This document shows, piece after piece, positions 18,889-24,027 of a stretch of 64,000 nt of DNA; the first letter of the stretch is position 1, and the number at the start of each line of letters is the position of its first letter. The position numbers were made by a program, and so were the translations under genes. Under the pieces are notes generated by a model. The model did not search any database. It had not been told where the DNA came from and saw only the letters and a program-made list of their open reading frames with translations. Source of the DNA: an uncultured Mucispirillum sp. (GTDB lineage Bacteria; Chrysiogenota; Deferribacteres; Deferribacterales; Mucispirillaceae); contig CALVEY010000002.1 in assembly GCA_944326705.1 (NCBI GenBank), positions 1 to 64,000 on the forward strand, given 5' to 3'.

Positions 18889-19282
18889 ACTATCTTTCCG
18901 CCGCACAACTCAAAAATCAGGTTTTCGTTATTTTCCCCTATAAAACTCCAAAGTATAACTGCTCATTATTTTTATTCTATTGCCACTGCAACTCGCTTTG
19001 CTAAAGACTTGCAGCTGGCAAATCCTATTAAATTTTTTTATAAAAATTCTAAAGCTGCTTTTCTGATTCTTCCCTATTCGGTCAGGAACAGACAGCTCTC
19101 GCAAAAAACGCTCGTCCAGTGAATTTTTATAACCACGCATAGCCGAAGTAAATTCGTCTATGCTTACTAAAGAAAATACATCCTGTATTTTGTCATAAAA
19201 ATAATTCGCATACGGTTTGAAGAGTTTTATATGGCAAAATAACAGAAGATTATTTATTGAGATTTGCGGCGGCAGCGATAGT
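18889..19282 (-). repeat. 394-bp palindromic structured element (copy B)
   Basis: The element is bounded by imperfect inverted arms of about 85-95 bp: 18889-18980 read on the plus strand aligns with 19282-19195 read on the minus strand, sharing ACTATC, CCGCCGCA, CTCAA, GTTATTTT, TATAAAACTC and ATTATTTTTAT in order. Inside, reading the minus strand, lie a hairpin at 19163-19137 (GCATAG/CTATGC extended by CGAA/TTCG), the core at 19132-19038, and a hairpin at 19021-18980 (TTGCCA-CTGCAA against TTGCAGTGGCAA with one bulge). It sits between convergent genes. A 70-codon frame runs through it (19140-18928) but follows the repeat structure and looks incidental. It shares core motifs and stem order with 23698-24011. 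Confidence 0.65.
19038..19132 (-). ncRNA. Conserved core of element B (candidate structured RNA)
   Basis: The outer stem GAATTTTTATAA (19121-19132) pairs perfectly over 12 bp with TTATAAAAATTC (19038-19049). Reading the minus strand, 5 nt inside it is an 18-nt box (19115-19098; ACGAGCGTTTTTTGCGAG), then inner stem AGCTG/CAGCT (19097-19093 with 19057-19053), and an 18-nt conserved loop (19083-19066; starts GACCGAATAGGG). Both 18-nt motifs match 15 of 18 positions in element A, whose stems have different sequences. No similarity to a named RNA family is recognised. Confidence 0.45.
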
Positions 19283-23697: not shown

Positions 23698-24011
23698 AAA
23701 CTGTCGCAAACTCTTTACGACAGTTTCATACTGTCAAAAATGTTATTTATTATTTTAAACTTATAATAAGAAATATTATCTACATTAAAAATTAATTTGT
23801 TTAACTAAACTTGGAGCGTGTATCCAAGTTTAGTTACCCTTATAGCCTAATAAATGCGGCGAGTGTTTTTTACGAGGACACTTTTTCCCGACTGAATAAG
23901 GATGAATATGAAAAAGTGGCTGGAGAACATTATTAGGCTGGCTTCGGACTGGCGAAAAAAAAGTATTTTTTCGACAATCTAAACCTGTCGGAAATCATTT
24001 CCCGACAGTTT
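23698..24011 (+). ncRNA. 314-nt multi-stem structured element (copy A), candidate ncRNA
   Basis: In order: hairpin H1 (AAACTGTCG 23698-23706 with CGACAGTTT 23718-23726); H2, a perfect 13-bp stem (23802-23814 with 23824-23836); outer stem AGCCTAATAA/TTATTAGGCT (23844-23853 with 23930-23939). Five nt inside the outer stem is an 18-nt box (23859-23876; GCGAGTGTTTTTTACGAG), then inner stem CACTTTTTC/GAAAAAGTG (23879-23887 with 23910-23918) and a conserved loop (23890-23907). H4 is CGAAAAAA/TTTTTTCG (23953-23973) and H5 is CTGTCGG/CCGACAG (23985-24008). Stem order and both 18-nt motifs match element B. H5 read on the minus strand could also terminate the PepSY gene. No named RNA family is recognised. 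Confidence 0.5.
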
Positions 24012-24027
24012 ATAAATCTTTTATACA

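Follow-up and report, generated by a model that had tools for sequence, protein, structure and literature searches.

The common core of two regions in the window

The window is a stretch of 64,000 nucleotides (G000:C2:1-64000, with G000 denoting the genome of the window, which is Mucispirillum-like and belongs to the Deferribacterota). At the locus of element 1, which is flanked by a gene for an RRM protein and then by a gene with a PepSY-associated TM match, it carries a 255-bp insert and two terminator-like hairpins; a second region on the opposite strand holds element 2 (Table 1). In a preliminary description of this DNA, the two regions were said to contain a hairpin, an outer stem, a box, an inner stem, a loop motif and a further hairpin in the same order, and the coordinates and motifs given there for both regions are as we find them in the sequence. 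Box GCGAGTGTTTTTTACGAG (23859-23876) agrees with box ACGAGCGTTTTTTGCGAG (19115-19098) at 15 of 18 positions, the three differences being transitions, and loop motif GACTGAATAAGGATGAAT is identical to GACCGAATAGGGAAGAAT at 15 of 18, both as described. Of the proposed shared order, the box, the inner stem and the loop motif hold and constitute the core. The outer stems and flanking hairpins do not, and are parts of two different host repeats that also occur without a core.

The core, which is the common part of the two regions, is 62-72 nt long and usually has the ends (G)GCGAG...GGCTGG. Its fold consists of hairpin H1 (CGA-nn-GTTTTTT-nn-GAG) and, after it, a variable stem with hairpin H2 (CCGA-nn-GARTA-nn-GAGG) at its tip. 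In H1, the C-G, G.A, A.G and G-C pairs are invariant over 15 aligned copies and the Y-R pair covaries, and H2 has a 2-bp covarying stem with a loop of GAATA or GAGTA. In each 18-nt motif, a T-A to C-G change of one base pair accounts for two of the three differences between the window's copies, and thus the boxes themselves covary. Subfamilies with differing inner stems, H1 variants and H2 variants are present. A protein conserved across both copies was ruled out, since an indel shifts the frame of one copy relative to the other; single core copies can still be open.

Table 1. Positions of the two cores, their helices and the surrounding repeats in the window
Feature	Position	Strand	Remarks
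Core, copy 1	23860..23921	+	CGAG...GGCT; covariance-model match 23855-23926, 90.9 bits, E 2e-18 (whole genome); among the 15 copies used to build the model
Core, copy 2	19053..19114	-	covariance-model match 19048-19119, 66.4 bits, E 1.4e-12 (whole genome); among the 15 copies used to build the model
Hairpin H1	23860..23876	+	CGAGT-GTTTTTT-ACGAG, tandem G.A/A.G step; alignment columns 6-24
Hairpin H2	23888..23904	+	CCGACT-GAATA-AGGATG, tandem G.A/A.G step; alignment columns 38-55
Variable inner stem CACTTTTTC / GAAAAAGTG	23879-23887 and 23910-23918 (arms)	+	compensatory changes, columns 27-37 with 61-72
Host palindrome 1, left arm	23844..23857	+	AGCCTAATAA...TGC; core-free form AGCCTAATAAAATGC-loop-GCATTATTAGGCT in L004, L014, L019
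Host palindrome 1, right arm	23927..23939	+	core-free forms in L004, L014, L019
Host palindrome 2, 5' arm	19121..19132	-	TTATAAAAATTC; core-free form TTATAAAAATTC-ACGGAT-GAATTTTTATAA in L009, with loop AAGGAT instead in L060
Host palindrome 2, 3' arm	19038..19049	-	GAATTTTTATAA; core-free in L009, L060
Composite host repeat of copy 2	18889..19282	-	imperfect inverted ends CTATC..CCGCCGCAAATCTCA / TGAGTTGTGCGGCGGAAAGATAG; MITE-like
Dispersed host repeat carrying copy 1	23727..23981	+	about 255 bp; 8 other Mucispirillum genomes lack it at this locus
Terminator-like hairpin, left duplicate	23698..23726	+	single in relatives, two here
Terminator-like hairpin, right duplicate	23982..24012	+	single in relatives, two here

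Host palindromes

The outer stem as a conserved part of the element was rejected: it belongs to two unrelated host palindromes, each also found core-free (Table 1), and strong flank pairing is missing from most copies. Palindromes of the TGTCATTC type host further cores. Strong flank pairing was found in 16 of 57 distinct contexts and was matched by 11 of 2000 permutations of flank pairs; hence, placement in loops is enriched but is not the rule, and the overall preference for loops is modest. The composite around copy 2 has an inverted self-match of 76% over 91 nt, and a degenerate relative (79% over 108 nt) occupies the orthologous position in G006 (L274:5338-5444).

Distribution of the core

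Further copies with intact stems, on which the preliminary description had made its proposal depend, were found by a covariance-model search of the genome and its relatives, and pairing is kept in them. About 35 copies are present in G000, and all 10 Mucispirillum genomes are core-positive with 2-39 copies each (39 in G003, 35 in the single-contig G006 and 22 in G005). The same model found no core in other Deferribacterota, in 0 of 30 and then 0 of 41 genomes. By their model scores (Table 1), the likeness of copies 1 and 2 goes far beyond chance. Because both copies helped to build the model, this spread over genomes is a stronger test than their bit scores.

Cores lie on either strand, as singles or as inverted tail-to-tail pairs, and are located between genes, in prophages, in loops of other palindromes, in other cores and occasionally in frame in genes. 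Phage contig L137 contains five cores and a sixth weak one within 6.2 kb, on both strands. The earlier remark that no named family is known to have these motifs agrees with Rfam 15, in which tRNA alone was matched in the window at gathering score and matches at both loci were weak and below it. In addition, the main text of the M. schaedleri genome paper (PMC5285517) does not mention such a repeat, and our literature searches returned no description of the core.

Covariation of the helices

The first alignment, made with MAFFT from 15 copies, gave a core with three paired regions. In this set, the tandem G.A columns were constant in H1 and almost constant in H2, and both sides had changed in 11 of 20 pairs. 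In a larger alignment of 113 matches (95 distinct), which leans towards structure because it was fitted to the covariance model, the paired fraction was 95.9%, and over the 95 distinct copies both sides were changed in 328 cells against 97 in shuffles, with a covariation score of 0.59 against 0.19 when shuffled and at most 0.07 with partners slid. The MAFFT alignment agrees in direction with the fitted one. Structural constraint on the core is strongly confirmed, pairing being kept while sequence changes. The inner stem, described from the two regions as pairing in spite of different sequences, indeed carries compensatory changes over 95 distinct copies.

Such constraint could reflect a functional structured RNA, either an sRNA or a 3'-end cis element, with copies kept for mRNA stabilisation, termination or regulation. 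The strength of the covariation and the occasional G-U pairs among the covarying helices would suit this role, and the G.A steps of H1 and H2 would be stable in RNA. Moreover, there are 29 sense but only 12 antisense copies between co-directional genes, and the 14 copies between convergent genes exceed the expectation from local gene order, although in these counts copies are not independent and genes were assigned by a simple longest-ORF rule. However, both orientations are found, including an antisense copy within a terminase gene, many copies are nested in one another or in other palindromes, and copy positions vary between species and between sister prophages. Neither an Rfam match nor a consistent neighbour gene was seen, and we consider an RNA function unlikely, with the sense bias speaking in its favour. 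Of the preliminary wording, 'a structured RNA family or a palindromic repeat under structural constraint', the constraint stands by covariation and a functional RNA is unproven. The evidence favours a mobile palindromic repeat: some orthologous sites are empty, cores are nested, lie in both orientations and occur in phages, and one insertion into a coding sequence is in frame.

Filled and empty sites

Sequence comparisons support mobility of the core at several sites. At the element-1 locus, all 8 other Mucispirillum genomes having the locus show one terminator-like hairpin and no insert. In phage contig L137, AGCAGGGG and GGGGAGTG flank a core, and the related prophage of G002 (67-76%) has GCCGGGGAAACTC at this place. 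Where the orthologous prophages of G003, G005 and G000 have near-identical flanks, some carry inverted core pairs and others do not. At one site, identical palindrome arms surround a core pair in one case and about 60 nt of unrelated sequence in another, and a core pair of about 200 bp, 97% identical, occupies two different prophage sites. At L206:15379-15514, a core is interrupted by a second core in opposite orientation. Cores also lie within coding sequences: the terminase gene of a G000 prophage (PHROG match) has a 114-nt in-frame insert with an antisense core that five homologues do not have, and in L286 two cores are read in frame within a phage ORF. Flanks of cores commonly have GG on both sides, with GGGG in L137 and A/A in some cases, and these are short and ambiguous as target duplications.

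The repeat of about 255 bp is flanked by two terminator-like hairpins of a neighbour gene at L004 and L014 too, and these hairpin pairs look as if insertion had duplicated the whole hairpin. Tail-to-tail pairs at L229:10156-10313, L229:10798-10947 and L234:4734-4882 have a short spacer, which is often palindromic itself (GGAACAACTGCCCC, GGGAAGCCGTTCCCC). In the sister prophages L229:10720-11060 and L305:2745-3306, the outer arms are identical and the loop contents wholly different, with sharp boundaries.

Dedicated mobility might not be needed if cores were moved by homologous recombination and gene conversion, in which hairpin arms provided the homology between dispersed host repeats and phages, and if structure persisted because the loops of palindromes exchange easily. 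The two arms at prophage site C are identical in G003 and G005 and their loop content differs completely; the same content recurs at a second site with similar arms, and core 1 travelled together with its 255-bp host repeat. However, cores are also found at sites without host-repeat arms, for example in the phage at L137:3553-3624 and in the inner hairpin of another core, and exchange alone leaves the compensatory changes of the inner stem unexplained. Homologous exchange between host repeats accounts for some moves, for instance at prophage site C, but it does not explain the cores found in unique sequence; as a complete explanation we regard it as unlikely.

Search for a mobilising enzyme

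A retroelement or group II intron derivative would need a reverse transcriptase, and no RVT_1 match was found in any of the 10 Mucispirillum genomes. The core could alternatively belong to a REP/BIME system moved by a REP-associated Y1 tyrosine transposase (RAYT), as its short palindromes, tail-to-tail pairs and interspersed copies resemble REPs and BIMEs (PMC3733652), and Y1_Tnp is present in 6 of the 10 genomes. However, Y1_Tnp had no match in the copy-rich G003 and G005 or in the single-contig G006, no cores lay beside the Y1 genes examined, and the element end has no GTAG tag, which makes a RAYT system quite unlikely. With the RVT_1 and Y1_Tnp profiles, no enzyme correlating with the core family was found in the 10 genomes. 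The gene pattern gives no support to spread by reverse transcriptase or Y1 transposase.

Proposed explanation and relation to known repeats

We propose that the core is a genus-specific, non-autonomous family of small mobile double hairpins in Mucispirillum and its phages, and on comparative sequence evidence we give this a probability of about 0.78. According to this proposal, the constraint would act on the nucleic acid as a single strand, since the conserved G.A steps are found on only one of the two strands and would be C.T mismatches on the opposite one. The single-stranded form may be recognised during spread, and the core is most likely the hairpin substrate of a putative enzyme of recombination or transposition that is provided in trans. 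The loops of palindromes already present would be tolerated or preferred as landing sites. A core inside a host repeat could then be carried by the transposition of that repeat, and homologous exchange between repeat copies may also carry the nested core.

The core is filed as a kind already known, the small mobile palindromic repeat, of which the genus-specific variant described here is new. Rickettsia palindromic elements (RPEs) are likewise small, palindromic and genus-specific, and can sit in frame in genes, adding a peptide (PMC10969869); the core is likened to them by description, its in-frame copies being those in the terminase gene and in the L286 phage ORF. It differs from RPEs in its length (about 70 nt versus about 150 bp), and in being mostly intergenic, having two tandem-G.A hairpins, and occurring in phages and inside other palindromes. 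REPs and BIMEs are interspersed intergenic palindromes with inverted pairs, occasional genic copies and alternative complementary stems (PMC3733652), all of which the core has too, but the core is larger with three helices, and several copy-rich genomes have no Y1 gene match. REPs of the GTAG type have GTAG at one end of a palindrome of 20-40 bp, and with RAYT a Y1 tyrosine transposase gene that is often flanked by repeats; the core has neither feature in the genomes searched. The CGTC type has a CGTC/TGTC tag, a stem of 8-9 bp and a loop of 4-5 nt, whereas such tags occur only in the host palindromes and not in the core.

Like bacterial MITEs (ERIC, RUP, Correia and others), the core is non-autonomous and dispersed, and the copy-2 composite has inverted ends. 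However, the two ends of the core, GGCGAG and GGCTGG, do not form an inverted repeat. The GG, GGGG or A/A flanks are ambiguous as a target duplication of fixed length. Mitochondrial double-hairpin elements of Allomyces are dispersed, their insertions differ among close species and their mode of movement is unknown (PMC2800124). The core resembles these and other repetitive hairpin-forming elements in being dispersed, forming hairpins and having insertions that differ between close species, but they reside in organelles whereas the core resides in bacteria and phages, and homology is not claimed.

A broader reading, which we hold only tentatively and think somewhat doubtful, is a class of mobile elements in bacteria and phages that has not been described before; they would move as a structured single strand, choose or tolerate hairpin loops including their own as targets, and need neither reverse transcriptase nor Y1 transposase, with nested palindromes growing layer by layer and contents being interchangeable.

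The family is a small set of natural sequences whose compensatory changes directly reveal selection for the hairpin structure of a mobile repeat. Filled and empty sites in sister prophages, together with loop contents swapped between identical arms, make the spread and nesting of enzyme-less palindromic repeats testable in a cultured gut bacterium.

Similar hairpins in other phyla

In a wide scan with the 17-nt box, the matches listed outside Mucispirillum were mostly chance or unrelated repeats. Among them, the hairpin CGAGCG-TTTTTT-GCGAG is enclosed by the arms of dispersed, unrelated palindromes from other phyla (L021-L120). Among the matches listed, it is flanked by arms CCAGGGGTG/CACCCCTGG in a Thermoanaerobaculia MAG and by arms GTCATTCTGAG/GAAGAATC in a KSB1 MAG, and repeats of Virgibacillus and Laceyella hold it as well. 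Single matches to this hairpin are near chance, and the repeated families are the point of interest.
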